From assembly GCA_947643415.1 (NCBI GenBank), contig CANRWA010000008.1, positions 1 through 64,000 on the forward strand: a stretch of 64,000 nt of DNA, read 5' to 3'. The translations under genes were made by a program, and so were the position numbers. The notes beneath the pieces were generated by a model. It saw nothing but the letters and a program-made list of their open reading frames with translations. It did no database searches and was not told the DNA's origin. Shown one piece after another: positions 19,308 to 63,569 of this stretch. Position 1 is the stretch's first letter. The number at the start of each line of letters is the position of its first letter. This DNA comes from an uncultured Clostridia bacterium. Its GTDB lineage: Bacteria > Bacillota > Clostridia > Lachnospirales > Lachnospiraceae.

Positions 19308-20648
19308 TTACTTGTTGCTTCTTCTCCAGATATTCATCTTCTCAGCCTCCTTGATCAGTTCATCACGGAAATCCGGGTGTGCGATGCCGATCAGTGCCTC
19401 TGCACGCTGCCATCCGGACAATCCTTTTAGGTTAACCATGCCATATTCAGTTACAACATGGTGGGTATTGGCACGGGTATCTGTTACAATAGAACCATTT
19501 GCCAGAGTTGGGCGGATACGGGATTGCAGTTCACCCTTTTTATTCTTAAAGGTAGAGGACAGGCAGATGAAACTCTTGCCGCCCTTTGATTTATAAGCAC
19601 CCAGAACGAAATCGAGCTGTCCACCCGCGCCACTGATATTTCTTGTTCCGGCAGACTCTGCATTGACCTGTCCGAAGAGGTCGATATCAACTGCATTATT
19701 AATAGAAATGAAATTATCATGGGCAGAGATAACATCAATATCATTTGCATAATCAACAGGAACACTCATGACTTCCGGATTGTCATCCAGAAAATCATAC
19801 AGTTTCTGTGTGCCGGCCCCAAAGGCAAATACCTGGCGTCCTTTATTGATATTTTTCTTTGATCCATTGATCTTGCCTGCTCTGGTGATATCGACAAAAG
19901 CATCTACATACATTTCTGTATGTACCCCCAGATCCTTAAGGTCAGATTCAGCAATGAGAGAGCCAACCGCATTTGGCATACCGCCGATGCCAAGCTGGAG
20001 GCAGGCACCATCCGGGATTTGCGCAACAATCTGTTTTGCGACAGCTTGATCTACTTCAGTAGCTGCTCCACCGCCGCCAAGTTCTGCCATGGCAGGATTG
20101 TCTCCTTCAATGATCATGTCTACTTTTGAAATATGGATTCCATTGTCATAACCGCCAAGACAACGGGGCATATTTTCATTGACCTCAACAATGACACATT
20201 TGCTCTTTTCACATGCTGCCATCAGATGGGAAGCGCTTGGTCCGAAATTGAAATATCCGTGCTTGTCCATGGGAGCTACCTGCATGACTGCTACATTCAC
20301 CGGATCTGGCAGGTCACGGTAGTAACGTGGCAGTTCGGAGTAACGGATGGGAGCATAGAAAGAAAAACCTTCTGCGATCGCTTTTCTCTCGATACCACCC
20401 ATATGCCAGGAATTCCATGTAAAGTGGTCAGCGGGATTTTCAACTTTGAAGATTTCCGGCACCCACATCAGAATACCGCCATGAAATGTTACATCATGAA
20501 GTTCTGTGATGCGTTTTGCCATTTCACGGTCAAAAGCGACAGGCGTGGTGGCAGTCCAGCCATAATCAACCCAGTCGCCGGATTTGACAATCCCAGCAGC
20601 TTTCTCTGCTGTTGTCAGTTTGTTCTTATATAATGCTTCGTAATCCAT
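19308..20648 (-). CDS. but: Butyryl-CoA:acetate CoA-transferase
   Basis: This 446-residue enzyme belongs to the family of acetyl-CoA hydrolases/transferases that includes But and 4-hydroxybutyrate CoA-transferase. It moves CoA from butyryl-CoA to acetate, releasing butyrate and regenerating acetyl-CoA in the cytoplasm. Landmarks are GDWVDYGW near the N-terminus, [14 protein letters not shown], the catalytic glutamate in [11 protein letters not shown] (Glu245), GQVNAESAG and the C-terminal HPDFRDEL. The start has a strong AGGAGGTAATT in front. Since the butyryl-CoA genes lie 6 kb away, the But role is preferred over a 4-hydroxybutyrate role, although the two are hard to separate by eye. Its promoter carries a Rex-type operator. 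Confidence 0.85.
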
Positions 20649-20682
20649 AATTACCTCCTAAATATAAAATATTCAATAAACT

Positions 20683-20719
20683 TTGTTATAATTTTAACAT
20701 TATGGTCTTTTGTGGTCAA
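20683..20719 (-). promoter_or_regulatory. but promoter with a candidate Rex operator
   Basis: On the minus strand TTGACC (20714-20719) and TAAAAT (20691-20696) are 17 bases apart. The sequence TTGTTATAATTTTAACAT (20683-20700, plus-strand reading) matches the clostridial Rex site TTGTTAA-N4-TTAACAA at 12 of 14 fixed positions and covers the -10. Rex bound here would block expression of but when NADH is low. Confidence 0.72.
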
Positions 20720-20854
20720 GGGTGTTTTGGAAGATTTCGGGAAAGGAATAGCGTGATATTGGCAATGGCAGGTTTTTGTGAGAAAAAATGGGAAAGAGAA
20801 ATTAAAGTGGGTATGTTACAATAAAGTCAATATTAATTATGGGAGGTAATTAGA

Positions 20855-21400
20855 TTGAAAAAGAAAACTTATTTGATTTTGCAAATATTTGCAATGATAG
20901 CGATCGCCTGCAGTTGTTCAAATAACCAGGAAATTGTTGAGGAAAAAAAGGAGTATAGTGATGTCGCAACAAGTGGAGCAATGGATTGGGTGAGTGAATC
21001 TGCATATGGTACTTCTGTGTTTGGAGAAGATACAGATGAATGGTGCCCTTATGTTGATAGTGATAAATTTTATCGGGAAGAATTAAAAAAAGGGAATAAT
21101 TATTCTTTATATATATCAAATTATCCTGAAATCCATTCCAGAAAAGATGTTAAGGGGAAAATTAACATTGGAGAAGAAGAATTGTATTATACTATTTTAG
21201 ATATAGGAAAATCTGAGGTGACTTATTATGAAGACGATGCAAAAAAACGAGAGAAAACAATTGTTTACAACACGGGTTATTACAGAATCTATAAACGGGT
21301 AGGAAATCGGTTTTACACATTATGGATTGATCAAGAACTGGATGAAGAGAGCATAAGGAAAAAGGCAAAGAAAATCTTTGATAAATATTGTACGTTGTAA
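20855..21400 (+). CDS. Small lipoprotein of unknown function
   Basis: The 181-residue protein begins with a signal segment and the lipobox-like AIACSC; residue 19 or 21 could carry the lipid. The body is acidic with many Glu, Asp and Lys and no domain that I recognise. The start is TTG at 20855, supported by GGGAGG eight bases upstream. A lysophospholipid acyltransferase gene follows after a 34-base gap, so the two may be cotranscribed. Codon use is noticeably more AT-rich than in the butyrate genes. Confidence 0.65.
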   Translation: MKKKTYLILQIFAMIAIACSCSNNQEIVEEKKEYSDVATSGAMDWVSESAYGTSVFGEDTDEWCPYVDSDKFYREELKKGNNYSLYISNYPEIHSRKDVKGKINIGEEELYYTILDIGKSEVTYYEDDAKKREKTIVYNTGYYRIYKRVGNRFYTLWIDQELDEESIRKKAKKIFDKYCTL

Positions 21401-21434
21401 ATTTTTAAAATATCCGGAAAGAGGGGATACCAAG

Positions 21435-22124
21435 ATGATAATTGATAGCTTTACTAAGTTGGGAAATAAAACAGTACTTTCTTATCCTTTAGAACGAACA
21501 TATAAAGATATTAAAAGGATGAGATATCTGATCAAAATTCTGGATAGTATTTGCAAAGTAGAATATATAGGGCTAGAAAATCTTTCGGATAATCCATGTA
21601 TACTTACCCCAAATCACAGTAGCCATTTGGACATAGTCTGTATATATAAGGCTCTGATGGAATGTTTTGGATACGATAAATTGTACAAGATGTGTTGTTT
21701 AGCAGCAAAAGAATTAGAAGTCAGGGAAAAAGGAATGGGCAAAATATTTCGTTCTATTGGTGCAATTCCCTTTGATCGGAATGGAAATAATGTTGCACAC
21801 CTTAAAATGTTACATACATGCATAAATAAGGGTTTTAGTACAGTTATATTTCCAGAAGGAACCAGAACAAGAAGTGGGGAAATAGGCGCTTTTATGGGGG
21901 GGGCGGCAGCGATTGCTATTAAGACTGCTACGGTGGTCATACCTGTTGGTATTATCGGAACTTTTGACATATGGCCGGCAAGTCAAAAGAAACCATGTTT
22001 TTCTCTGAAGAGAAAAACAGTGAAAGTCTTATTTGGGCAACCAATTCTTCCAAAAGATTCAACTGTATCAGAACTGACCGGGCAAATCGAGTCAAACGTA
22101 AAAGAATTATGCAAGGAGATGTAA
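21435..22124 (+). CDS. Lysophospholipid/1-acylglycerol-3-phosphate acyltransferase (PlsC-like)
   Basis: This is a 229-residue membrane-associated acyltransferase. It carries the catalytic HX4D motif in NHSSHLD (about residue 56) and the glycerol-phosphate binding motif FPEGTRTR (about 140), followed by AIKTATVVIPVGI. It would transfer an acyl chain to a lysophospholipid or lysophosphatidic acid. The start at 21435 has GAGGGG upstream; the ATG at 21378 lies within the previous gene. A HAD-type protein gene starts two bases after its stop, so the two are translated from one message. The housekeeping plsC may lie elsewhere, and the exact acceptor is not known. Confidence 0.85.
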   Translation: MIIDSFTKLGNKTVLSYPLERTYKDIKRMRYLIKILDSICKVEYIGLENLSDNPCILTPNHSSHLDIVCIYKALMECFGYDKLYKMCCLAAKELEVREKGMGKIFRSIGAIPFDRNGNNVAHLKMLHTCINKGFSTVIFPEGTRTRSGEIGAFMGGAAAIAIKTATVVIPVGIIGTFDIWPASQKKPCFSLKRKTVKVLFGQPILPKDSTVSELTGQIESNVKELCKEM

Positions 22125-22126
22125 AA

Positions 22127-22732
22127 ATGGTTATCGGAGTGGATGCTGACGGAGTGCTTACTGATATGCAGAAATTTAATTTCATATTTGGACAGAGATT
22201 TTTTAATAAAAGAATTATAAATCCAAGCGGGTATACAGCAAGAGAAATATTTGAAGTAAGTAAGATAAAAGAAATTTTATATGGAATAAAATATTTTCCA
22301 CAATATTGCAAAAACTGGCCTCCAAGGAAAGATGCAAGTGTTATACTTAATAAATTGATGGCAGAGGGACATGATTTGCATGAAATTACAGCAAGAAAGT
22401 TTGTGACTTCGAACAGCATACTGGGGAAATATAGTAGGAAATGGTTTCTGCAATGGTGTGAAAATAATGAATTCTCTTTTTCAAGTGTTACGTTTTGTTC
22501 AGAAAAAAATGGAATGATTGATAAATCTGAGGCTTGCTTAAGATTAAATATAGATATTATGATTGATGACCGACCTGAAATTGTCCTAGCTCTTGCAAAA
22601 AAGGGAATTATGGTTTTGATGATGGATGCACCCTATAACCAGTATATCCGGCATGAAAAGGCAAAGCGTGTTTTTGATTGGCTTGATGTTTATGAAAAAA
22701 TTTCAGAAATGTCAGGAGTTAGCGGAAATTAA
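22127..22732 (+). CDS. HAD-superfamily nucleotidase-like phosphatase
   Basis: The 201-residue protein begins with the HAD motif I GVDADGVLTD (nucleophile Asp and the second Asp two residues on) and ends with a motif IV-like IDDRPEIVLAL. Between them is EITARKF in the position of motif II. It resembles the NT5C-like putative 5'-nucleotidases. Its start at 22127 has AAGGAG six bases upstream and directly follows the acyltransferase gene. A lipid-phosphate or nucleotide substrate is possible; the sequence does not decide. Its stop lies in a tandem 13-bp repeat at the left edge of the decayed region. Confidence 0.78.
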   Translation: MVIGVDADGVLTDMQKFNFIFGQRFFNKRIINPSGYTAREIFEVSKIKEILYGIKYFPQYCKNWPPRKDASVILNKLMAEGHDLHEITARKFVTSNSILGKYSRKWFLQWCENNEFSFSSVTFCSEKNGMIDKSEACLRLNIDIMIDDRPEIVLALAKKGIMVLMMDAPYNQYIRHEKAKRVFDWLDVYEKISEMSGVSGN

Positions 22733-22755
22733 GAAATTCTGGATTAAGAAATTCT
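22728..22755. repeat. Tandem repeat ATTAAGAAATTCT at the edge of the decayed region
   Basis: ATTAAGAAATTCT occurs at 22728-22740 and again at 22743-22755. The stop codon of the HAD gene is part of the first copy. Confidence 0.7.
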
Positions 22756-22770
22756 CAAGATTTTTTTATT

Positions 22771-22821
22771 CCAACTTTATTCCCAATGTGTTACAATTAA
22801 AAAAATTGGAAATAAAGTTGG
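22771..22821. repeat. Inverted repeat flanking a 19-base loop
   Basis: CCAACTTTATTCCCAA (22771-22786) and TTGGAAATAAAGTTGG (22806-22821) are complementary with one mismatch. It could terminate the acyltransferase/HAD transcript or be an operator or end-sequence of the decayed gene that follows. Confidence 0.55.
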
Positions 22822-22827
22822 GAATAA

Positions 22828-23402
22828 ATCCGTATCGAGGAGATTGATGCTTATTTTATATGGGGAATTGAGGATGAGAATCATAAAATAGCTGGGACGA
22901 CATTCAACCAATATTGCGACTACAATAAAGAACCATATCAAAATTATCTGGCGAGAAATCTTTCTCCGAGCCTGAATTTTTCTTTTGAGGAAATTGAACT
23001 TTTTAAGATACTTGATGGGAGAACAGAAACCATAGAAACAATTCTGGCAAAATATCAGGAACTTACTTTCCAAAAATTGTTTGGATATTGTGGGTCAAAA
23101 GGAATTGTTTTAAATGATAAAACCTTTATAAAAAATTTAGGGCTACGCAACGAAGAAGGACAATTTAATTTATTGGCGCAGATGTTTTTGGATGATTCTC
23201 ATTTGCATATCAGTGGGAAATCAGGGCGGGGAGTTCCAGAAATAACGGAAATTTATGGTAAAAAGGCGTTTGCATTTCGAGAGAATCGCAAATTTTAGGC
23301 GTTAGCAAAACGGCTGTAGATAACAATATTTCATTTCTGCGTGAAAATAGCTATATTGAGAGAGTAGGGTCAAAAAAAGCGGGATATTGGAATGGGTTAT
23401 AG
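22828..23402 (+). pseudogene. Remnant of an AlbA_2/Schlafen-like ATP-binding regulator
   Basis: The frame from 22828 to 23298 encodes AYFIWGIEDENHKIAGT and LARNLSPSLNF, as in the AlbA_2 domain proteins (COG2865 type). It jumps directly to a later segment (KGIVLNDKTFIKNLGLRNE, then GVPEITEIYGKKA). After the stop at 23296-23298 another frame (to 23402) carries the winged-helix end of the same family: ILGVSKTAVDNNISFL and YIERVGSKKAGYW. The N-terminus is missing, internal pieces have been deleted and the frame is shifted, so the gene is dead. Intact relatives are about 450-500 residues and occur in mobile and defence-associated regions. Confidence 0.75.
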
Positions 23403-23475
23403 AGTATCATATAAGAAGATTAAAGTAAGATTTCTGTCGAAAAGAATATAAATAAAAGTAGGAAGGATTGATTGT

Positions 23476-23648
23476 ATGGCTGTGGCATAAAAAGAAGATT
23501 ACCAGAGAGCGTTAGATGAACAGAAAAAGAAGTTCGAGAGCTTGTAATGGCTGGATTGGAACAGATAAAAGAGGGAAAGACAAAGGACTTTAATACTGTA
23601 TGTGACAGATTGGAGAAGAAATACAGAGATGAGGCAATATCAAATTAG
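23476..23648 (+). pseudogene. Remnant of an antitoxin gene
   Basis: The ATG at 23476 gives MAVA and then a stop; beyond it the same frame continues as KEDYQRALDEQKK. A shifted frame follows with EVRELVMAGLEQIKEG and FNTVCDRLEKKY up to the stop at 23646. Length, charge and position in front of the ParE-like remnant fit a small antitoxin. One stop codon and one frameshift disable it. Confidence 0.6.
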
Positions 23649-23751
23649 GATTACGGAGTTGGCAGAGGAGAATTTAGAAAATGCTGGTGATTACATTGCC
23701 TATGAATTGAAAAATATGTTGAAAAAATTGCTTGTTGCCAATATAATATAA
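23629..23751 (+). pseudogene. Truncated RelE/ParE-family toxin
   Basis: Forty codons from the ATG at 23629 read MRQYQIRITELAEENLENA followed by GDYIAYELKN, the N-terminus of a ParE/RelE toxin; the expected continuation (about 60 more residues with the catalytic part) is absent. The start overlaps the end of the antitoxin remnant, as in intact modules. It is probably non-functional. Confidence 0.7.
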
Positions 23752-23766
23752 AAAGGATGAAGGCAA

Positions 23767-23988
23767 ATGCTTAACGATGTTACGGTCTTTAACATTCATG
23801 ATTACCTGTCAGCTAAAGACGATAAAGAACTCGGAGAGGAGGAATTACTGGGATTCCTCTCCGAGTTTTCATGTGACAAGAACATATATGTGGAAAGATT
23901 TTTAAAAGGACAATCTGTTGAATTCACTAAAAAGAATCAGTCTGTTACTTATAGGAAACAGTGCCTGCCCTCGCAGAAAAGGGTATAG
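23767..23988 (+). pseudogene. N-terminal fragment of a GNAT-type acetyltransferase
   Basis: The 73 codons include GFLSEFSCDKNIYVERFL, then SVEFTKKNQSVTY. This is like the N-terminal region of a group of GNAT proteins often found near toxin-antitoxin genes. After TY the similarity stops and the frame enters a different gene remnant (DUF1016). The acetyl-CoA binding part is missing. A perfect 13-bp hairpin lies within the coding part (23828-23867). Confidence 0.55.
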
Positions 23989-24240
23989 AAATGGCGATGC
24001 CGCTTGACATGATAAAAGACACTTATATGTGCAGCAGTGGATTACCCTCAATAATACGAACTACTATGTGGATGTGGTTTTCTACAATAAAATTCTCCGG
24101 GCGTATGTGCTGGTTGAATTAAAAACGACAAAGCTCACACTGGACAGCTCAATATGTATCTGAATTACTATGCCAAAGAGGTAAATGGCGAATACGATAA
24201 CCCGCCAATCGGGATTATCCCTTGTATGGATAGCAAGTAG
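23967..24240 (+). pseudogene. Remnant of a DUF1016 (YhcG-type PDDEXK) nuclease
   Basis: Three frames must be joined. The first gives ALAEKGIEMAMPLDMIKD. The second gives WITLNNTNYYVDVVFYNK then VLVELKTTKL, which contains the D-x-V/ELK core of a PDDEXK nuclease. The third gives GQLNMYLNYYAKEV and NPPIGIIPCMDSK. These are the conserved C-terminal blocks of DUF1016 proteins, in the right order. Two frameshifts and an internal deletion (the part between IKD and WIT) destroy it. Confidence 0.75.
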
Positions 24241-24291
24241 AAGCTGTTTTGAATGAATGGCATAACAAAGAGAAGAAATAGGCAAAAAAGA

Positions 24292-24330
24292 ACAGGACGC
24301 GGTAGCTAGCCAATGACTTCCGCGCCCTGT
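24292..24330. repeat. GC-rich inverted repeat
   Basis: ACAGGACGCGG (24292-24302) and CCGCGCCCTGT (24320-24330) are complementary with one mismatch. It stands between the DUF1016 remnant and the LRR fragment; no T-run follows. Confidence 0.5.
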
Positions 24331-24337
24331 CTGTTGA

Positions 24338-24925
24338 GGAAGTAATGAAATTGCTGCACCAGGGCAGTCTGCCCCCACCCCGACAATCCCTGCAACAACC
24401 CAGACTCCGTCTCCTGCGCCAACACAACATTCAGACACCAATTATGCATCCGATATGCCAGCACAGGAAGAAGTGGAAGCAACACAGTTATCCGTGGGAA
24501 CCAGGCTGAGTGATGGGACAGGAGAAGTTTACACTATTACGAAATCTGGCGCATCCAAAGGGGAAGTATCCTATACAGCTCCGAAAGACAGGAAGATAAC
24601 TTCCGTTGTGGTACCTGCTGTTGTGAAGCTGAAAGGGATCACCTATAAAGTCATATCTATCCGGAAAGATGCTTTCAAAAACTGTAAAAAACTGAAGAAG
24701 GCGACGATCGGAAAGAATATAAAGAGTATTGGAAAGAATGCTTTTTATGGTTGTGAAAGGTTAAAGAATATCGCAGTGAAGACAACAAAGCTGACCGCAA
24801 AGGGTATTGGCAGCAAGGCATTTGCAAAACTGCACAAAAAGTTAAAGATCAAAGTGCCTAAGAAAAAGTTATCTTCTTATAAAAAATATTCAGGGAAAAG
24901 GGTGTGGCAGGAAAGAAGCAGTTAA
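24338..24925 (+). pseudogene. Truncated BspA-type leucine-rich repeat protein
   Basis: The frame is open from 24338 to 24925. It begins with a Pro/Thr-rich linker (PTPTIPATTQTPSPAP) and continues through LSVGTRLSDGTG into an LRR_5 block (FKNCKKLKKATIGKN, AFYGCERLKNIAV). No signal peptide, ribosome binding site or proper start precedes it; the first ATG (24455) is inside the linker region. This looks like the C-terminal part of a larger surface protein whose start has been lost. The ATG-to-stop part would encode 156 residues. It resembles the intact gene at 13118-14632 in type only. Confidence 0.65.
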
Positions 24926-24944
24926 TAAAAAAATAATGTAAATA

Positions 24945-24984
24945 AAGGGTCGTCTGACGCTGAAAACAGTGCCGAACGACCCTT
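24945..24984 (+). terminator. Terminator-like hairpin
   Basis: AAGGGTCGT (24945-24953) pairs exactly with ACGACCCTT (24976-24984); GGTTTT follows. It closes the LRR fragment. Confidence 0.6.
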
Positions 24985-24998
24985 GGTTTTGCCATCAG

Positions 24999-25040
24999 AA
25001 AAGTTTTAGTTGCATATTGGGCTGGCGATGGATTATAATA
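24999..25040 (+). promoter_or_regulatory. Promoter copy 1 (of two), upstream of the VapBC-like module
   Basis: This 42-bp segment carries TTGCAT (25010-25015) and TATAAT (25034-25039), 18 bases apart. It is repeated with three differences at 25750-25791. It lies 41 bases before the antitoxin start. Confidence 0.65.
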
Positions 25041-25080
25041 ACAGTAAGATGTGCCTGTCAGGAGAATGGAGGTGCTTGGT

Positions 25081-25317
25081 ATGCTGGCATTGCAGGGGTA
25101 TTACGATGGACAGAAGATACAGACATTAGAGGTGATTCAGGCGAAGAAGAACCAAAAGGTAATTATTACTGTGCTGGATGAGTTTGTTGAGGAAATGCCT
25201 GTCAGGAAAGAACATTCTGCCAGAGGTCTGCTTTCTGAGTATGCAGATACTGGATTGTGGGAAAAAGAAAAGACGGCATGGGAAAAGGCGGTGGCAGAGA
25301 AATATGCAGATGCTTGA
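25081..25317 (+). CDS. Antitoxin of a VapBC-like module
   Basis: This is a 78-residue protein starting MLALQGYYDGQKIQTLE and ending WEKAVAEKYADA. The N-terminal half looks like a short beta-type VapB DNA-binding element and the C-terminal half is charged and helical, suited to bind a toxin. The ATG at 25081 has GGAGG eight bases upstream; the earlier in-frame ATG at 25051 lies ahead of that site. The toxin gene overlaps the last eight bases, the usual arrangement for coupled synthesis. The assignment rests mainly on size and on the PIN-domain neighbour. Confidence 0.72.
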   Translation: MLALQGYYDGQKIQTLEVIQAKKNQKVIITVLDEFVEEMPVRKEHSARGLLSEYADTGLWEKEKTAWEKAVAEKYADA

Positions 25318-25675
25318 TACAAACATGGTTCTGCGTTATCTTCTGAATGATAACAAGGAGATGGCGGACGAGGCAGAGAGAATTGTAAAAGATGGCGCTG
25401 TTTTGCTGACAACAGAGGTAATTGCAGAAGTAGTTTATGTTTTGAAAGGGGTATATTCTATAGAACGTGGACAGATTGCATCCTGTCTGTTAGAATTTTT
25501 ATCAGAAGTCAATATCCCTGAAGAACAGGTAGTAAGGTTGGGGCTGGAAACATATGCAGAACAAAATCTGGATTTTGTGGATTGTATATTATATGCTTAT
25601 AATCGAGTAAAGGGGTATGAGGTTAAGACATTTGATAAGAAGCTTCAAAAACTGCTTGGGGTATCAAATAAGTAA
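25310..25675 (+). CDS. PIN-domain toxin (VapC-like ribonuclease)
   Basis: This 121-residue PIN protein starts MLDTNMVLRYLL, with the first acidic metal ligand in LDTN. Further acidic residues are Glu in TEVIAEVVYVL and Asp in LDFVDCILYAYN and KTFDKKL, giving a complete-looking active site. VapC toxins cleave tRNA or rRNA and are held inactive by the antitoxin. The ATG at 25310 overlaps the antitoxin; an ATG at 25304 is two codons earlier. No stop or frameshift is seen, so this is the one toxin-antitoxin pair in the region that seems intact. Confidence 0.85.
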   Translation: MLDTNMVLRYLLNDNKEMADEAERIVKDGAVLLTTEVIAEVVYVLKGVYSIERGQIASCLLEFLSEVNIPEEQVVRLGLETYAEQNLDFVDCILYAYNRVKGYEVKTFDKKLQKLLGVSNK

Positions 25676-25680
25676 GAATG

Positions 25681-25726
25681 AAAAAAGAACCTGATTCTGG
25701 GGGTATTCAGAGCCAGATTCTTTTTT
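25681..25726 (+). terminator. Probable terminator after the VapBC-like module
   Basis: AAAAAAGAA...TCTGG pairs imperfectly with CCAGATTCTTTTTT; the T-run is at 25721-25726. It lies just after the toxin stop. Confidence 0.55.
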
Positions 25727-25749
25727 GTTGTTCTGGGGGATTTTAAGCA

Positions 25750-25791
25750 AAAAGTTTTAATTGCATAGCGGGCTGGCGATGGATTATAATA
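25750..25791 (+). promoter_or_regulatory. Promoter copy 2, followed by a broken gene
   Basis: This is the second copy of the 42-bp promoter segment, with TTGCAT (25761-25766), an 18-base spacer and TATAAT (25785-25790). It now drives a short remnant and the truncated SWIM gene. Confidence 0.65.
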
Positions 25792-25815
25792 TAGGCAGTG
25801 GAAGGAGTTATATTA

Positions 25816-25887
25816 ATGGATTTAGAAAGAATGAACTTATTTGCTGCAGTTGAACATACTGATGATAACGTACGGGTGCCGTGGTAG
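25816..25887 (+). pseudogene. Start of a lost gene (23 codons)
   Basis: The ATG at 25816 has GGAAGGAG upstream and encodes MDLERMNLFAAVEHTDD before joining the SWIM gene out of frame and stopping at 25885-25887. By position behind promoter copy 2 it may be the beginning of a second antitoxin-like gene whose remainder was deleted. Confidence 0.45.
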
Positions 25888-26456
25888 ATCTGAAGATCCG
25901 GAAGGGAAAGGTGCAGGCGAGGGTACAGGGAAGGAGGAAGGTTCCTTATAAGGTTGAGGTCAGGATTAGCCCCCTCTCAGAAGAACGATGTCAGTATGCC
26001 ATCAGTCGGTGTGGGAAGAAGATTGAAAATCTGGAGCGTCTTCTGCAGGGAGAATTTCCAGAAGAATTGAAAGAACTTTTTTTGGGCAGCCAGGGCTTGT
26101 TTCCCTCCCCGAAAGAGATCAGTTTCAACTGTAGCTGCCCGGACTGGGCGCTTATATGTAAGCATGTGGCGGCGGTATTATATGGAATCGGTGCGAGATT
26201 CGATGAAAACCCGCTTTTGTTTTTTAAATTAAGGGGGATTGAAGTGGATCGTTTTATCGATGTTGCCTTGGAAAATCGGATTGATAGCATGTTGAAAAAT
26301 GCAGATAAGCCAAGTGAGAGGATTAGTTCTTCAGACCGCGGCAGGGATTGTTTGGATTGTGACAACCGGCGCACCACAACATCTGTCAATGGCAGGATAA
26401 ACGTTCTCAAGATTTTGTGCCCGAATCATGAAAAAAATAAGAAAAAACTTTGTTAA
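25869..26456 (+). pseudogene. 5'-truncated SWIM zinc-finger protein
   Basis: The frame opens right after a TAA and reads RTGAVVDLKIRKGKVQARV, a segment that normally lies about 60-80 residues into SWIM proteins. The zinc ligands C-x-C...C-x-H appear in FNCSCPDWALICKHVAAVL. The C-terminus is present to 26456, including a Ser/Arg/Asp-rich tail. The first candidate start (GTG at 25881) has no ribosome binding site, so I regard the gene as a 5'-deleted remnant joined to the promoter region of another gene. Intact relatives act with SNF2 helicases. Confidence 0.7.
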
Positions 26457-26489
26457 ATTCTTGACGATATCCTTTCTTTATGTTATGAT
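26450..26489 (+). promoter_or_regulatory. Promoter of coaD (and probably the butyrate genes) with a candidate Rex operator
   Basis: TTGACG (26461-26466) and TATGAT (26484-26489) are separated by 17 bases. TTGTTAA-ATTC-TTGACGA (26450-26467) fits the Rex site TTGTTAA-N4-TTAACAA at 12 of 14 positions and covers the -35. The left half-site overlaps the stop codon of the SWIM remnant. Confidence 0.65.
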
Positions 26490-26556
26490 AGAACCGTGGT
26501 GGAAAATCTGTGAAAACAGGCATATTTGCCATGCCTGTGGAATGGAAGGTGGCATG

Positions 26557-27042
26557 ATGAAAGCGATTTATCCTGGCAGTTTCGATCCGGTTACAAACGG
26601 GCATCTGGACATTATCCAGCGCGCTGCCAGAGTAGTGGACGAGCTGGTTATTGCTGTGCTTGTAAACAGTGACAAGAAACCATTGTTTACGATGGACGAA
26701 CGAATGGATATGATTCGGGAGGCAACAAAAGAGATTCCCAATATCAGTGTGCAGTCCTTTACCGGCCTTACCGTTGATTTTGCGAGAGAGAATGGGGCTA
26801 AGGTGATGGTCCGGGGGCTTCGTGCTGTGACGGATTTTGAGTCAGAAATGCAGATCGCACAGACCAACCACAGCATAGAACCGGGGATTGAGACGATATT
26901 TTTTACAACAAGCCTGGAGTATTCTTTTCTCAGTTCAACCATCGTCAAAGAGATCGCACATTATGGCTCCGATGTGTCAAAACTTGTTCCATCGGTTGTA
27001 GAAGAAGCATTTCACCGTAAGTTTGGTCATTCACTGCATTGA
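26557..27042 (+). CDS. coaD: Phosphopantetheine adenylyltransferase
   Basis: CoaD transfers AMP from ATP to 4'-phosphopantetheine, the penultimate step of coenzyme A synthesis. The 161-residue protein shows YPGSFDPVTNGHLDII with the T-x-G-H adenylyl transfer motif at residues 13-16, the conserved VRGLRAVTDFE and the C-terminal SSTIVKE. Length is normal for the family. The start at 26557 has AAGG seven bases upstream; frames starting further upstream are not conserved. It stands 55 bases before thl with no obvious separate promoter, so CoA synthesis may be cotranscribed with the CoA-using butyrate pathway. Confidence 0.96.
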   Translation: MKAIYPGSFDPVTNGHLDIIQRAARVVDELVIAVLVNSDKKPLFTMDERMDMIREATKEIPNISVQSFTGLTVDFARENGAKVMVRGLRAVTDFESEMQIAQTNHSIEPGIETIFFTTSLEYSFLSSTIVKEIAHYGSDVSKLVPSVVEEAFHRKFGHSLH

Positions 27043-27097: not shown

Positions 27098-28282
27098 ATG
27101 TCAAAGAAAGTTGTATTAGCTGGCGCTTGCCGTACTGCCATTGGTAAAATGGGTGGTGCTCTGAGTACTGTGCCAGCAGCAAAGCTGGGTTCCATTGTTA
27201 TTGAAGAAGCACTGAAAAGAGCAGGTGTTGCCAAGGATGCCGTAGACCATGTATATATGGGCTGTGTTATCCAGGCAGGTCTGGGACAGAACGTTGCCCG
27301 TCAGGCGTCCATAGGGGCAGGCCTTCCAATCGAGACTCCGGCTGTAACAGTAAACGTTGTATGTGGATCCGGCCTGAACTGTGTGAACATGGCTGCACAG
27401 ATGATCCAGGCAGGAGATGCTGATATTGTTGTGGCAGGTGGTATGGAGAACATGTCCCTGGCTCCATATGCAGCTATGAACGGTCGTTTCGGTTATAGAA
27501 TGAACAATGGCACATTGGTTGATACCATGGTGAATGACGCACTGTGGGATGCATTCAATCAGTATCATATGATGGTTACTGCTGAGAATGTAGCAGAGCA
27601 GTATGGCCTTACCCGTGAGGAACTGGATGAGTTTGCTGCCAACAGCCAGCAGAAATGCGAGAAGGCGATGGCAGAAGGCAGATTCAAGGATGAGATCGTT
27701 CCAGTAGAAGTAAAACAGCGTAAGAAGACTATCGTTGTTGATACTGACGAGGGACCTCGTGCCGGCACAACGGCAGACAGCCTTAGTGCACTGAAATGCT
27801 GCAGTGGTGTTGACGGTGGTGTTGTTACTGCTGGTAATGCTTCTGGTATCAATGATGGTGCTGCAGCGATCGTTGTTATGAGCGAGGAGAAAGCAAAAGA
27901 GCTTGGGGTTACTCCGATGGCAAGCTTCGTAGCTGGTGCCCTGGGCGGTGTGGATCCGAAGATCATGGGCGTTGGTCCGGTTGCTTCTACAAAGAAGGTA
28001 CTGGCAAAGACAGGCATGACGATTGATGAATTTGATCTGATTGAGGCAAATGAAGCATTTGCAGCACAGTCTGTAGCAGTAGGAAAAGATCTTGGATTTG
28101 ATCTGAGCAAGCTTAATGTAAACGGTGGTGCTATCGCTCTTGGTCATCCGGTAGGGGCAAGTGGATGCCGTATCCTTGTTACACTGCTTCATGAGATGCA
28201 GAAGCGCGACGCAAAGAAAGGTCTGGCAACACTCTGTATCGGTGGTGGAATGGGCTGCTCCACGATCGTAGAGAGAGACTGA
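27098..28282 (+). CDS. thl: Acetyl-CoA acetyltransferase (thiolase)
   Basis: Thl condenses two acetyl-CoA to acetoacetyl-CoA, the first step of butyrate formation. The 394-residue sequence contains the nucleophile Cys89 (VCGSGLN), His350 (LGHPVGASG) and Cys380 (CIGGGMG), as well as NEAFAAQ. Length and motifs match biosynthetic type II thiolases. A strong AAAGGAGG lies before the ATG. The genes crt, hbd, bcd, etfB and etfA follow on the same strand in pathway order with gaps of 11-72 bases. Codon use (GTT, GCT-rich) suggests high expression. Confidence 0.96.
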
Positions 28283-28354: not shown

Positions 28355-29146
28355 ATGGAATTCATAACATATGAAGTAGAAGACAAGGTTGGTATCATTA
28401 CCATTAACCGTCCCAAAGCATTGAATGCGCTGAACAGTGCTGTGCTGGATGAACTGGATGCCACACTGGATGCAGTTGACCAGAATGAGATCCGCTGCCT
28501 GATTCTGACAGGAGCAGGAGAGAAATCTTTTGTTGCCGGTGCTGATATTGGAGAGATGAGCACACTGACTAAGGCAGAGGGCGAGGCATTTGGAAAGAAG
28601 GGAAATGATGTATTCCGCAAGCTGGAGACATTTCCGCTTCCTGTCATTGCTGCCATCAATGGATTTGCTTTGGGAGGCGGCTGTGAGATTTCCATGAGCT
28701 GTGATATCCGTATCTGTTCTGAGAACGCTGTATTTGGACAGCCGGAGGCTGGTCTTGGTATTACACCGGGATTTGGCGGCACACAGAGACTTGCCCGTCT
28801 GGTAAGCCCTGGCATGGCAAAACAGTTGATCTATACAGCAAGAAATATCAAGGCAGATGAGGCATACCGCATCGGTCTTGTAAATGCGGTTTATCCACTG
28901 GAAGAGCTGCTCCCACAGGCAAAGAAGATGGCTGCCGGTATCGCAGCACAGGCCCCGATCGCTGTACGCAACTGCAAGAAAGCGATCAATGACGGGCTTC
29001 AGGTAAATATGGATGAGGCCATCGTGATTGAAGAAAAGCTCTTTGGCGATTGCTTTGAGACAGAAGACCAGAAAGCTGGTATGGGCAACTTCTTAGAGAA
29101 GGATAAAGAAAAGAAATTGAAAGTAGTTCCATTTAAGAACAAATAA
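28355..29146 (+). CDS. crt: 3-hydroxybutyryl-CoA dehydratase (crotonase)
   Basis: Crt removes water from 3-hydroxybutyryl-CoA to form crotonyl-CoA. The 263-residue protein has the enoyl-CoA hydratase fold with NRPKALNALNS, the oxyanion-hole segment VAGADIGEM, and the two catalytic glutamates in GGGCEISMS (Glu111) and QPEAGLGI (Glu131). Length is normal. The 72-base gap after thl contains a small hairpin (GGCCGGTC-AGGA-GACCGGTC) without a T-run, which may adjust the relative amounts of Thl and downstream enzymes. Confidence 0.96.
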   Translation: MEFITYEVEDKVGIITINRPKALNALNSAVLDELDATLDAVDQNEIRCLILTGAGEKSFVAGADIGEMSTLTKAEGEAFGKKGNDVFRKLETFPLPVIAAINGFALGGGCEISMSCDIRICSENAVFGQPEAGLGITPGFGGTQRLARLVSPGMAKQLIYTARNIKADEAYRIGLVNAVYPLEELLPQAKKMAAGIAAQAPIAVRNCKKAINDGLQVNMDEAIVIEEKLFGDCFETEDQKAGMGNFLEKDKEKKLKVVPFKNK

Positions 29147-29169
29147 AAAATATATGGAGGTAAAAGTTC

Positions 29170-30012
29170 ATGAAAGTTGGTGTTATTGGTGCAGGAACCA
29201 TGGGTTCCGGTATTGCGCAGGCATTTGCGCAGACAGAGGGTTATGAAGTATATTTGTGCGATATCAATGAAGAGTTCGCAGCAAATGGCAAGAAAAAGAT
29301 CGCCAAGGGATTCGAGAAGAGAATCGCTAAGGGAAAGATGGATCAGGCTGCTGCAGATGCAATCCTGAACAAGATCACAACAGGTGTGAAAGATATCTGT
29401 ACAGATTGTGATCTGATCGTAGAGGCTGCCCTTGAGGTTATGGATGTCAAGAAACAGACATTCAAAGAGCTGCAGGATATTGTAACGAAGGATGACTGTA
29501 TCTTTGCTACAAACACATCCTCTCTTTCTATCACAGAGATCGGACAGGGTATCTCCCATCCGGTGATCGGTATGCACTTCTTTAACCCGGCACCTGTTAT
29601 GAAGCTGGTTGAAGTAATCCGTGGAGAGAACACAACAGATGAAGTAAACGAAAAAGTTGTTAATATCGCAAAAGAGATCGGCAAAACTCCTGTTGAGGTA
29701 AAAGAGGCTGCTGGATTCGTTGTAAACAGAATCCTGATTCCGATGATCAATGAAGCAGTTGGTATCTATGCTGATGGTGTTGCTTCTGTAGAAGGTATCG
29801 ACGCTGCCATGAAACTTGGTGCAAATCATCCAATGGGACCGCTGGCTCTGGGTGATCTGGTTGGTCTGGATATCTGCCTTGCTATCATGGAAGTACTGCA
29901 GGCTGAGACAGGTGATCCGAAGTACCGTCCTCATCCACTGCTGAGAAAGATGGTACGTGCCGGCAAGCTTGGCATGAAGACAGGCGTAGGATTCTACGAT
30001 TATTCTAAATAA
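29170..30012 (+). CDS. hbd: 3-hydroxybutyryl-CoA dehydrogenase
   Basis: Hbd reduces acetoacetyl-CoA to 3-hydroxybutyryl-CoA with NAD(P)H. The 280-residue protein begins with the Rossmann motif [13 protein letters not shown], has the catalytic His136 in GMHFFNPAP and the C-terminal helical domain with [11 protein letters not shown] and [17 protein letters not shown]. The start ATG lies 23 bases after crt behind GGAGG. Together with Thl and Crt it supplies crotonyl-CoA to Bcd-EtfAB. Confidence 0.96.
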
Positions 30013-30042
30013 ATAGTTCCAAAGAAAGGAGTTATATCGATC

Positions 30043-31194
30043 ATGGATTTTAAATTAGACAAACAGCATGAGATGGCGAGACAGTTGTTCCAGGATTTTG
30101 CCCAGAACGAAGTAAAGCCACTTGCGCAGGAAGTTGATGAGACAGAAGTTTTCCCACGTGAGACTGTAACTAAGATGCAGAAACTCGGTTTCATGGGAAT
30201 CGCCATTCCGAAAGAATATGGCGGACAGGGCTGTGATCCTCTTACATATACAATGTGTGTAGAGGAGCTTTCCAAGGTATGTGGTACCACTGGTGTTATT
30301 GTATCTGCACATTCTTCCCTTGGTGCAGACCCCATCTATATGTACGGAACAGAAGAGCAGAAAAAGAAATATCTGGTACCTCTTGCCAATGGCGAGAAAC
30401 TGGGTGCTTTCGGCCTGACAGAACCGGGTGCTGGTACGGATGCCCAGGGACAGCAGACAAAAGCTGTTCTGGATGGAGATGAGTGGGTACTGAATGGTTC
30501 CAAATGTTTTATCACAAACGGTAAGGAAGCAGATATTTATATTATCATCGCTGTTACCGGCATTATTGAGAAACGTGGCAGAAAGATCAAAGAGATTTCT
30601 GCATTTATCGTAGAGAAGGGCACTCCGGGATTCTCCTTTGGAACAAAAGAGAAGAAGATGGGTATCCGCGGATCCTCAACCTATGAGCTGATCTTTGAAG
30701 ACTGCCGTATTCCAAAAGAGAATTTGTTGGGACAGCAGGGTAAAGGTTTTGGAATTGCCATGCATACACTGGATGGTGGACGTATTGGTATCGCTGCCCA
30801 GGCTCTTGGTCTTGCGGAGGGCGCTCTGGAAGCAACCATCGAATATGTAAAAGAGAGAAAACAGTTCGGACGTTCCATCGCACAGTTCCAGAATACACAG
30901 TTCCAGCTTGCTAATATGGCAACAAAGGTAGAGGCCGCTAAACTTCTTGTATACAAAGCAGCAAAAGCAAAAGAGACTCAGAAAGTCTACAGCGTAGAAG
31001 CTGCTATGGCAAAATTATTTGCTGCAGAGGTTGCCATGGAAGTGACAACCAAGGCGGTTCAGTTACACGGTGGTTATGGTTACATTAGAGAATATGACGT
31101 TGAGCGTATGATGCGTGATGCTAAGATCACAGAGATCTACGAAGGAACTTCAGAAGTTCAGCGTATGGTTATCTCTGGTAGCTTATTGAAATAG
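30043..31194 (+). CDS. bcd: Butyryl-CoA dehydrogenase
   Basis: Bcd is the flavoprotein that reduces crotonyl-CoA to butyryl-CoA; with EtfAB it can couple this to ferredoxin reduction by NADH (electron bifurcation). The 383 residues form an acyl-CoA dehydrogenase with FGLTEPGAGTDAQG (FAD/substrate loop), FITNGKEAD and the catalytic Glu367 in IYEGTSEVQRM. Length is exactly that of clostridial Bcd. It starts 30 bases after hbd and is followed by etfB after 11 bases. Confidence 0.96.
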   Translation: MDFKLDKQHEMARQLFQDFAQNEVKPLAQEVDETEVFPRETVTKMQKLGFMGIAIPKEYGGQGCDPLTYTMCVEELSKVCGTTGVIVSAHSSLGADPIYMYGTEEQKKKYLVPLANGEKLGAFGLTEPGAGTDAQGQQTKAVLDGDEWVLNGSKCFITNGKEADIYIIIAVTGIIEKRGRKIKEISAFIVEKGTPGFSFGTKEKKMGIRGSSTYELIFEDCRIPKENLLGQQGKGFGIAMHTLDGGRIGIAAQALGLAEGALEATIEYVKERKQFGRSIAQFQNTQFQLANMATKVEAAKLLVYKAAKAKETQKVYSVEAAMAKLFAAEVAMEVTTKAVQLHGGYGYIREYDVERMMRDAKITEIYEGTSEVQRMVISGSLLK

Positions 31195-31205: not shown

Positions 31206-31988
31206 GTGAAAATTGTAGTTTGTATAAAACAGGTACCGGATACTAAGGGCGGTGTTGTATTTAACCCAGACGGTACATTGAATAGAGGTGCAATGCTTAC
31301 CATCATGAATCCGGATGACAAAGCTGGTCTGGAAGCTGCACTGAGAATTAAAGATGAAACTGGTGCAGAAGTTACAGTACTTACCATGGGTCTTCCAAAG
31401 GCAGAAGAGGTTCTCCGTGAGGCTATGGCTATGGGTGCTGACAATGGTATCCTGGTTACTGACCGTGTTCTGGGTGGTGCTGACACATGGGCTACTTCTA
31501 CTACCATCGCTGGTGCACTGAGAAATATCGATTATGATCTGATCATCACTGGGCGTCAGGCGATTGATGGTGATACTGCACAGGTTGGTCCTCAGATTGC
31601 TGAGCATCTGGATCTCCCGGTTATCTCTTATGCACAGAATATTAAGATTGAAGGAAACAGTGTGATCGTTGAACGCCAGTATGAGGACAGATATCATGTA
31701 ATCAAGGCTCAGATGCCTTGCCTTATAACAGCTCTTTCTGAGTTGAATGAGCCTCGTTATATGACTCCGGGCGGGATTAATGAAGCGTTTGAGAAGGAAG
31801 TTACTGTATGGGGCAGGGCAGACCTGAAGGATGTAGATGATGCTAACCTTGGTCTGAAAGGATCCCCAACAAAGATTGCCAAAGCTTCGGATAAGGTCCG
31901 TAAGGGTGCCGGTGAAGTGGTAACTCTGGATCCAGCAGAAGCTGCAGCCTATATCGTTGACAAATTCAAAGAGAAACATGTAATCTAA
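31206..31988 (+). CDS. etfB: Electron transfer flavoprotein, beta subunit
   Basis: EtfB binds NADH and the flavins with EtfA and passes electrons to Bcd. The 260-residue sequence starts VKIVVCIKQVPDTKG and contains the ETF-beta signature region (LPVISYAQNIKIEGN, then LITALSELNEPRYM). The start codon is GTG with GGAGG about seven bases ahead, only 11 bases after the bcd stop. The order bcd-etfB-etfA is that of the bifurcating butyryl-CoA dehydrogenase complex. Confidence 0.95.
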   Translation: MKIVVCIKQVPDTKGGVVFNPDGTLNRGAMLTIMNPDDKAGLEAALRIKDETGAEVTVLTMGLPKAEEVLREAMAMGADNGILVTDRVLGGADTWATSTTIAGALRNIDYDLIITGRQAIDGDTAQVGPQIAEHLDLPVISYAQNIKIEGNSVIVERQYEDRYHVIKAQMPCLITALSELNEPRYMTPGGINEAFEKEVTVWGRADLKDVDDANLGLKGSPTKIAKASDKVRKGAGEVVTLDPAEAAAYIVDKFKEKHVI

Positions 31989-32027
31989 TTGGGTGTGAAT
32001 GTCGCACACGCAAGAATGGAGGTTAAA

Positions 32028-33065
32028 ATGAGTTTAGAAGAATATAAAGGTGTATATGTCTTTGCTCAGCAGGTTGACGGTGAGGTCAGCAGCATCGCAT
32101 ACGAACTGCTTGGTAAAGCAAAGGATCTTGCAAAAGATCTGGATACAGATGTAACTGCTGTACTGCTTGGCAGTGGTGTTATGGGACTGGCAGACAGTCT
32201 TGCTGAGTACGGCGCAGATAAAGTGATCGTAGTAGACGACAAGGAACTTGAAGTATACAGAACAGAGCCATATGCACATGCTCTGTCATCTGTTATCAAT
32301 GAGTATAAACCAGAGATTATGCTGGTAGGTGCAACTGCCATCGGCCGTGACCTTGGTCCCCGTGTATCTGCACGTGTGGCAACTGGTCTGACCGCTGACT
32401 GTACAGTACTGGAGATTGGTGATTTCACAGACATGGCGACAAAGGAAGTATTGCCAAAGCAGCTTCTTATGACACGTCCTGCCTTTGGCGGCAATACCAT
32501 TGCTACGATTGCCTGCCCATATAACCGTCCTCAGATGGCTACGGTACGTCCTGGCGTTATGCAGAAGATTGCTCCGATCGCAGGGGCAAAGGCAAATGTC
32601 ATTGAGTACAATCCTGGTTTCACACCAGACAACAAGTATGTTGAGATTCTGGAAGTTGTGAAATCCGTTGCCGATACTGTTGATATCCAGGATGCTAAGA
32701 TCCTTGTATCCGGTGGACGTGGCGTAGGAAGTGAAGAGAATTTCAAGCTTCTTCAGGACCTTGCCGATGTACTTGGCGGTACCGTAAGCTGCTCCCGTGC
32801 TGTTGTTGAGAATGGCTGGATGCCTCAGGAGCGTCAGGTTGGACAGACTGGTAAGACGGTTCGTCCTAATGTATATTTTGCTATTGGTATCTCTGGTGCG
32901 ATCCAGCACGTAGCCGGTATGGAAGAGGCTGACATCATTGTTGCCATCAACAAAGATGAGACAGCTCCGATCTTCGATGTAGCAGATTATGGTCTGGTTG
33001 GTGATCTGAATAAGATCGTTCCTCAGTTGACTGAAATGCTGAAAGCTGAAGTAGCAGGGAAATAA
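32028..33065 (+). CDS. etfA: Electron transfer flavoprotein, alpha subunit
   Basis: EtfA has 345 residues. The C-terminal FAD domain is recognisable by [31 protein letters not shown] and [16 protein letters not shown]. The start at 32028 has GGAGG five bases upstream; the frame is open back to 31989 but that part lies outside the conserved protein. It is the last gene of the pathway cluster and is followed by a terminator at 33092. Confidence 0.95.
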
Positions 33066-62936: not shown

Positions 62937-63569
62937 ATGGACAAGAAAATATCTTCTGCGGTCATCAAGAGATTGCCGCGGTATTATAGATATCTGAGCG
63001 AACTGCTTGATCAGGAAATTGACCGCATATCATCCCAGGAATTAAGCAAACAGATGAATGTGACGGCATCTCAGATCCGGCAGGATCTCAATAATTTTGG
63101 TGGTTTTGGCCAGCAGGGGTATGGTTATAATGTAGAGATATTAAAAGGCGAGATCGGAAAGATCTTGGGGCTGGACCGGCAATATCAGGTTATCATTCTG
63201 GGGGCGGGTAATCTTGGGCAGGCATTGGCAAACTATGTTGGGTTTGAGAGACGGGGATTTATCGTCTCTGCTATTTTTGATATTGATAAAAAGAAGATTG
63301 GCCAGCCTGTTGGGAACCTGAAAGTGTATGATATGGCGGAACTTCCACAATATGTAGAAGAAAACAGTGTTGATATTGCGGCATTAACACTTCCGAAAGC
63401 AAAGGCGCCGGAGGTAGCGAAGGAACTAGATAAGATGGGGGTTCATGCTTTTTGGAATTTTGCGGCGACGGATCTGGATCTTCCATCCGAGGCAGTAGTA
63501 GAGAATGTGCATCTGGCAGAGAGTCTGATGCGTTTGTCATATAACATTGCAAATCCTGTTAAGAAATAG
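62937..63569 (+). CDS. rex: Redox-sensing transcriptional repressor Rex
   Basis: Rex senses the NADH/NAD+ ratio and leaves its operators when NADH is high. The 210-residue protein has the N-terminal winged helix (VIKRLPRYYRYLSELL, SSQELSKQMNVTASQIRQD, GGFGQQGYGYNV) and the Rossmann domain with GAGNLGQAL (from about residue 89) and FNFAATDLDLP-like C-terminal contacts (WNFAATDLDL). Length is normal. GGAGG lies about ten bases before the ATG. Candidate operators for it lie at the but promoter (20683-20700) and at the coaD/thl promoter (26450-26467). Confidence 0.96.
   Translation: MDKKISSAVIKRLPRYYRYLSELLDQEIDRISSQELSKQMNVTASQIRQDLNNFGGFGQQGYGYNVEILKGEIGKILGLDRQYQVIILGAGNLGQALANYVGFERRGFIVSAIFDIDKKKIGQPVGNLKVYDMAELPQYVEENSVDIAALTLPKAKAPEVAKELDKMGVHAFWNFAATDLDLPSEAVVENVHLAESLMRLSYNIANPVKK

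Follow-up and report, generated by a model that had tools for sequence, protein, structure and literature searches.

The but locus and its surroundings

The window, which is the whole stretch of 64,000 nucleotides that we analysed, contains the gene for butyryl-CoA:acetate CoA-transferase (but), a coaD-thl operon and the gene for the redox-sensing repressor Rex (Table 1). The but route is one of the main sources of gut butyrate. The CoA-transferase itself uses no NADH, so NADH control at this gene would amount to co-regulation with the NADH-using steps.

Table 1. Genes, promoter elements and Rex-type sites in the window
Feature	Position	Strand	Evidence or remark
but, butyryl-CoA:acetate CoA-transferase	19308..20648	-	TIGR03948, 888 bits (cut-off 675)
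Candidate Rex operator	20683..20700	-	TTGTTATAATTTTAACAT, ATGTTAAAATTATAACAA on the but coding strand; over the -10
but -10 hexamer TAAAAT, TG at 20698-20699	20691..20696	-	promoter scan
but -35 hexamer TTGACC	20714..20719	-	promoter scan; invariant in nine aligned promoters
5707-bp insert between the but and coaD-thl promoters	20734..26440	.	blastn; absent from G021 and G037
Second, stronger Rex-type operator	26450..26467	+	TTGTTAAATTCTTGACGA; over the -35 of the coaD-thl operon; 17.4 bits
coaD-thl promoter, TTGACG, 17 nt, TATGAT	26461..26489	+	read by eye
coaD, first gene of the operon	26554..27042	+	TIGR01510, PF01467
thl, acetyl-CoA acetyltransferase	27098..28282	+	TIGR01930, E 5.7e-141
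crt, hbd, bcd	28355..31194	+	PF00378, PF02737/PF00725, PF00441/PF02771; names by position and domain
Two ORFs, probably etfB and etfA	31206..33065	+	position only
rex, redox-sensing transcriptional repressor	62937..63569	+	NF003990, 310 bits (cut-off 233); intact

A preliminary description of this DNA had reported rex in the same window as but, and we recovered it there above the NF003990 cut-off, as the only PF06971 match in the 4.6-Mb draft genome. Its product has the N-terminal winged helix and the NAD(H)-binding Rossmann domain of the Rex family, as seen from the NF003990 and PF06971 matches and from the closest solved chain, 3wg9, whose match spans residues 5-204 of 210 and includes GAGNLGQA. 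The stretch ASQIRQDLNNFGGFGQQGYGYNVE is identical in the two proteins. This identity, together with the near-full-length match to solved Rex chains, fits with a similar DNA preference.

Upstream of but, a promoter scan found the hexamers TTGACC (20719-20714) and TAAAAT (20696-20691) separated by 17 nt, a 10/12 match with a preceding TG, in agreement with the minus-strand promoter proposed earlier. Since the scan returned 2 such sites in comparison with 1.4 in shuffles, the main support for this promoter comes from relatives, in which it is conserved: AATGnTA(A/G)AAT is present throughout the nine aligned but promoters. A second but paralogue, 48-50% identical, was observed in 11 of 39 genomes of the genus (e.g. 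G001, G005, G007, G026), one of the 11 copies having an internal stop.

The but and coaD-thl promoters are parted by the insert. In blastn, the matches to the window that end at 20733 and those that begin at 26441 lie directly next to each other in loci L271 and L272 of the two closest relatives, and each side of the insert retains its own promoter and its own Rex-type site. The ORFs of the insert encode acyltransferase, NT5C, BspA-type LRR, PIN and SWIM domains. coaD encodes pantetheine-phosphate adenylyltransferase, an enzyme of coenzyme A synthesis; besides preceding thl in the window, it lies beside but in 19 of 30 but loci of the genus (14 as a divergent neighbour, 5 in the same direction), and outside the locus in the other 11. 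CoA supply may thus also be Rex-controlled.

The candidate operator on the -10 of the but promoter

The 18-mer TTGTTATAATTTTAACAT occurs once in the window, at 20683-20700. It had been described as agreeing with the clostridial Rex consensus TTGTTAAN4TTAACAA at 12 of 14 fixed positions and as sitting on the -10 of but. Our recount gave the same two mismatches, and the site spans the entire -10 hexamer and its TG, a large part of one half-site being the extended -10 itself.

We then asked how often such a match arises by chance. Counted with the bare consensus at up to three mismatches, the window holds 8 places against 4.5 expected, a number that 6 of 100 shuffles reach and that is not significant; at up to two mismatches, the whole genome holds 21 places against 44 for the reversed control pattern, and the motif is not enriched. 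Judged by reading, 12 of the 21 fall within likely genes and the other 9 probably between genes; three of the latter are the sites of but, gapA and the coaD-thl operon. This division is a matter of judgement, since doubtful ORFs also overlap three of the 9, including the sites at gapA and coaD-thl. Matches to TTGTTAN6TAACAA with one mismatch were discarded as a description of the regulon in this genome: of 16 places 15 were read, and 13 of these lie inside an ORF of at least 90 aa. Separately, a Rex-type match, TTGTCAAAAAATTAACAT, lies at the start of an ORF that by eye resembles pyrE (L143, ~1501-1518; C33:23160-23177 of the same genome).

To score sites more finely, we built a symmetrised matrix from 22 distinct, hand-picked thl and gapA sites, with no but site included. 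Its training sites score 14.4-22.5 bits when each is left out in turn, and the but site scores 12.3 bits, below all 22. The preliminary description had suggested a scan with a matrix from related genomes; with ours, the but site is outscored in the 64 kb only by the thl-side site at 26450-26467. That description did not mention this thl-side site, which has the top score of the window while being itself a training site. Near the rex gene of the window the best sites score just 9.4 and 8.2 bits. When the 206-bp intergenic region 20649-20854 was shuffled with its dinucleotides preserved, 31 of 5000 shuffles reached the matrix score of the but site and 49 of 5000 contained a site within two mismatches of the consensus, which sets the shuffle-only chance at ~0.006-0.01. 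By sequence match alone the but site is moderately unusual and amounts to modest evidence.

These numbers bear on one alternative, in which an AT-rich extended -10 promoter (ATGnTAAAATTAT) yields the palindrome as a by-product, Rex being inactive at but in the species of the window. The 31 shuffles that reach the score speak in its favour, as does the retention of AATGnTAAAAT in relatives that lack a Rex-like score (e.g. loci L033, L034, L036 and L037). Against it, when the promoter letters ATGNTAAAATTAT are kept constant, the fraction of random completions that score as high as the but site is only 0.0011; with ATGNTAAAAT kept constant it is 0.0017. The comparison with relatives, presented below, also weighs on this alternative.

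Rex-type sites at the coaD-thl operon and gapA across the genus

A further Rex-type site lies just downstream of the gapA -10. Most gapA sites combine a strict TTTAACAA half with a freer other half. To determine whether sites of this class accompany rex, we used 39 genomes of the genus, in which protein search and the family model over its cut-off found rex in the same 31, and we scored the thl and gapA promoters with the literature consensus instead of our own matrix.

A site with at most two mismatches was found within 330 bp upstream of coaD or thl in all 27 testable genomes with rex and in 1 of 8 without it; four genomes with rex (G007, G010, G012 and G018) had no thl/coaD locus and were left out. 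Similarly, a site with at most three mismatches within 160 bp of gapA was present in 25 of 27 genomes with rex (24 of them at two or fewer) and in none of 4 without; this count leaves out, for want of a usable gapA start, G018, G019, G025 and G037 (with rex) and G004, G006, G009 and G029 (without). The Fisher values are 1e-6 for thl and 5e-4 for gapA and, like all Fisher values given here, were computed on related genomes with kinship uncorrected. The lone genome without rex that has a thl-side site, G029, has a completeness of 81%, and rex is present in G033, a sister nearly identical to it. In the tree, genomes without rex occupy two or more separate positions: G030 stands by itself next to G016, whereas G017, G006, G004, G009, G008 and G024 form a group around G005, G001 and G026 whose internal support is weak. 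The presence of Rex-type sites thus goes with that of rex at both promoters, and does so in two lineages or more.

In seven genomes (G004, G006, G008, G009, G017, G024 and G030) rex was absent from both searches, G004 being 61% and G009 69% complete, and the thl operators, as well as the gapA operators where examined, are decayed or absent. These are candidate natural rex-minus butyrate producers.

We considered other promoters too. Bifunctional adhE was rejected as a training promoter, as no match exceeded the cut-off in any of the 39 genomes; nor does any of 30 alcohol dehydrogenase loci have a site within two mismatches. Autoregulation of rex was dismissed as a general feature, as only 1 of 30 rex loci (L112, of genome G035) has a site at that threshold. 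The match in L112, TTGTTAAAATCTTGTCAA at 2191-2208, lies 73 bp upstream of rex, and this predicted site suggests that rex may be autoregulated in the G035 species.

The but site in the genus and in other genera

Conservation upstream of but, which the preliminary description had made a touchstone for the site, was borne out in part. G021 and G037, the two closest relatives, carry the 18 bp unchanged, and a similar site is present in four more genomes; on the other side, 27 of 34 genomes of the genus lack one, and this weighs most against a general rule. In total, 7 of the 34 have a but-proximal site, at 10.8-15.0 bits and no further than 100 bp from the start; the best score among the others is 8.2. 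Left out of this count were G025 and G019, whose start or upstream region is missing, and G012, G018 and G038, which have no close but. All seven sites are in the 26 genomes with rex and none in the 8 without (Fisher 0.16, not significant alone). The identity with G021 and G037 is by itself weak evidence, because the 85-bp but promoter differs from that of G021 at just 12 bases and a 4-nt gap.

The site lies on the -10 in G000, G021 and G037 and just downstream of it in G002, G020, G034 and G035. Regarding the origin of the overlap, point changes suit one relative and a 16-nt deletion another. A 16-bp deletion with an ATG repeat on either side, which we considered as the explanation, suits G002, which aligns with one 16-nt gap, but not G034, which aligns without an inner gap.

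We next looked beyond the genus, at named but loci. A site of at least 11 bits within 100 bp of the start was found in 14 of 80 but promoters, versus 1 of 509 other upstream regions (150 bp each) of the same loci. The 14 comprise six Pseudobutyrivibrio, one Anaerostipes, one [Clostridium] polysaccharolyticum, one Faecalibacterium and five other records, one of which is G034. The difference gives a Fisher value of 3e-12, or 4e-7 when the six Pseudobutyrivibrio are removed, neither corrected for kinship. The single control match, in Anaerostipes butyraticus (L255, at ~7744, 19.1 bits), may be a genuine Rex site of the neighbouring gene. For 50 of the 80 loci, made up of 13 that have a but site and do not belong to the known genus genomes and of 37 others, we also searched for rex: the but site occurs in 13 of 40 genomes with rex over the cut-off and in 0 of 10 without (Fisher 0.05; 0.09 without L231, which by coordinates is the genus member G008). 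One of the ten, L243, has a split rex match just below the cut-off. L256, with no rex over the cut-off, has a 12.4-bit site at -135, a point against the Rex reading.

Taken back to the by-product explanation, the 27 genomes without a but site agree with it, whereas the recurrence of Rex-type but sites in other genera at other positions relative to the -10, and the four relatives within the genus that carry the site beside the -10 and not on it, count against it. We regard this explanation as unlikely.

The comparison also bears on a different regulator with equal half-site spacing, for example a protein of the Crp/Fnr family. The Crp/Fnr operator is TGTGA-N6-TCACA and shares the half-site spacing of the Rex-type site, and HTH_Crp_2 exceeds its cut-off in the genome of the window and has matches with E <=0.001 in all 39 genomes. 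Nevertheless, it exceeds the cut-off in only 12 of the 39 and fails to do so in four of the seven genomes with a but site (G002, G020, G021 and G035), and the thl and gapA sites follow rex, whereas Crp/Fnr helix proteins over the cut-off do not follow the sites. Such a regulator is very improbable here. We give scarcely more than a token chance to the idea that only the thl-side operator works and that the but site is a remnant of a shared divergent region predating the 5.7-kb insert, with but now constitutive, since against the separation of but from the stronger site by the insert and the lower score of the but site stand its identity in the insert-free G021 and G037, with no visible decay, and the absence or decay of the thl and gapA operators in genomes without rex, except G029.

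Discussion

Our results support the Rex operator proposed for the but promoter as a computational prediction. What turns a match that is modest evidence alone into a likely operator is its context: the thl and gapA sites, the way in which these track rex, the rank of the but site under the matrix, and its presence in relatives and in other genera. We consider it likely that 20683-20700 is a real Rex operator of moderate affinity, which would gate but by NADH together with coaD-thl-crt-hbd-bcd and gapA. Binding of Rex at but, repression and the response to NADH would follow by analogy with the family.

The mechanism could be as follows. At low NADH, Rex on 20683-20700 would cover the extended -10 of but and exclude RNA polymerase; as the NADH/NAD+ ratio rises, Rex would leave and but would be transcribed, derepressed jointly with coaD-thl-crt-hbd-bcd, whose operator lies over the -35 at 26450, and with gapA. 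Of the three sites, that of but has the lowest matrix score; as a guess from these scores, it would perhaps be released first, at lower NADH than the thl and gapA sites. The entire butyrate route and gapA, a key gene of sugar breakdown, are probably tuned together to the redox state of the cell.

Some of this is already known: Rex sites have been predicted at thl/crt genes and at one CoA-transferase gene in Caproicibacterium. The clostridial Rex regulon (Ravcheev 2012, as cited in PMC5367854 and PMC9600882) uses an 18-bp operator of the TTGTTAAN4TTAACAA type, and its predicted targets include thl and crt-bcd-etfBA-hbd in C. pasteurianum (PMC5367854) and thl-crt-hbd in Caproicibacterium (PMC9600882). 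The type of operator and the thl/crt-hbd-bcd genes as targets are thus shared with our genus. The differences are that we deal with a butyrate producer of the CoA-transferase type in which but has its own predicted operator on the -10, and that most gapA sites have one strict and one freer half. In Caproicibacterium, a Rex site, TAGTTACTTTATTAACAA, is predicted at -77 before the butyryl-CoA:acetate CoA-transferase gene (PMC9600882, Table 1), that is, a Rex-type site before a gene of the same enzyme name, by prediction in both cases. Nonetheless, that is another organism with its own cat gene, which we liken to but by enzyme name alone, and the accessible portion of PMC9600882 mentions neither an overlap with the -10 nor a comparison with genomes lacking rex. 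Finally, ptb-buk is described in PMC5367854 as being under Rex in some clostridia, and no ptb-buk Rex site was found in C. pasteurianum according to the same source; Rex at the terminal butyrate step is common to that system and the one described here, which differ in their route, phosphotransbutyrylase and kinase there and CoA-transferase here. Among the matches listed in our literature search, judged by titles and the beginnings of abstracts, we found no work on the control of but transcription in Lachnospiraceae. What is new here is the comparative test of the site class with and without rex, together with the unusual placement on the but -10.

A broader picture can be drawn more tentatively, with slightly less than even confidence. 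In gut Lachnospiraceae, Rex may join glycolysis (gapA), the butyryl-CoA operon and the terminal CoA-transferase under common NADH control, with graded operators, strong at gapA and thl and weak at but. The but operators would have been repeatedly gained, moved and lost in the family and, in the lineage of the window, merged with the -10; both halves of the shared divergent region split by the insert would have kept a Rex site, and lineages without rex would have lost their operators.

If this is true, lineages without rex should make butyrate free of redox gating, and the candidate natural rex-minus genomes in the genus allow genomes with and without rex to be compared. If the Rex operator is real, hydrogen removal, acetate supply and electron sinks that shift NADH/NAD+ would change the expression of butyrate genes where a lineage has rex, and leave it unchanged where rex is missing.
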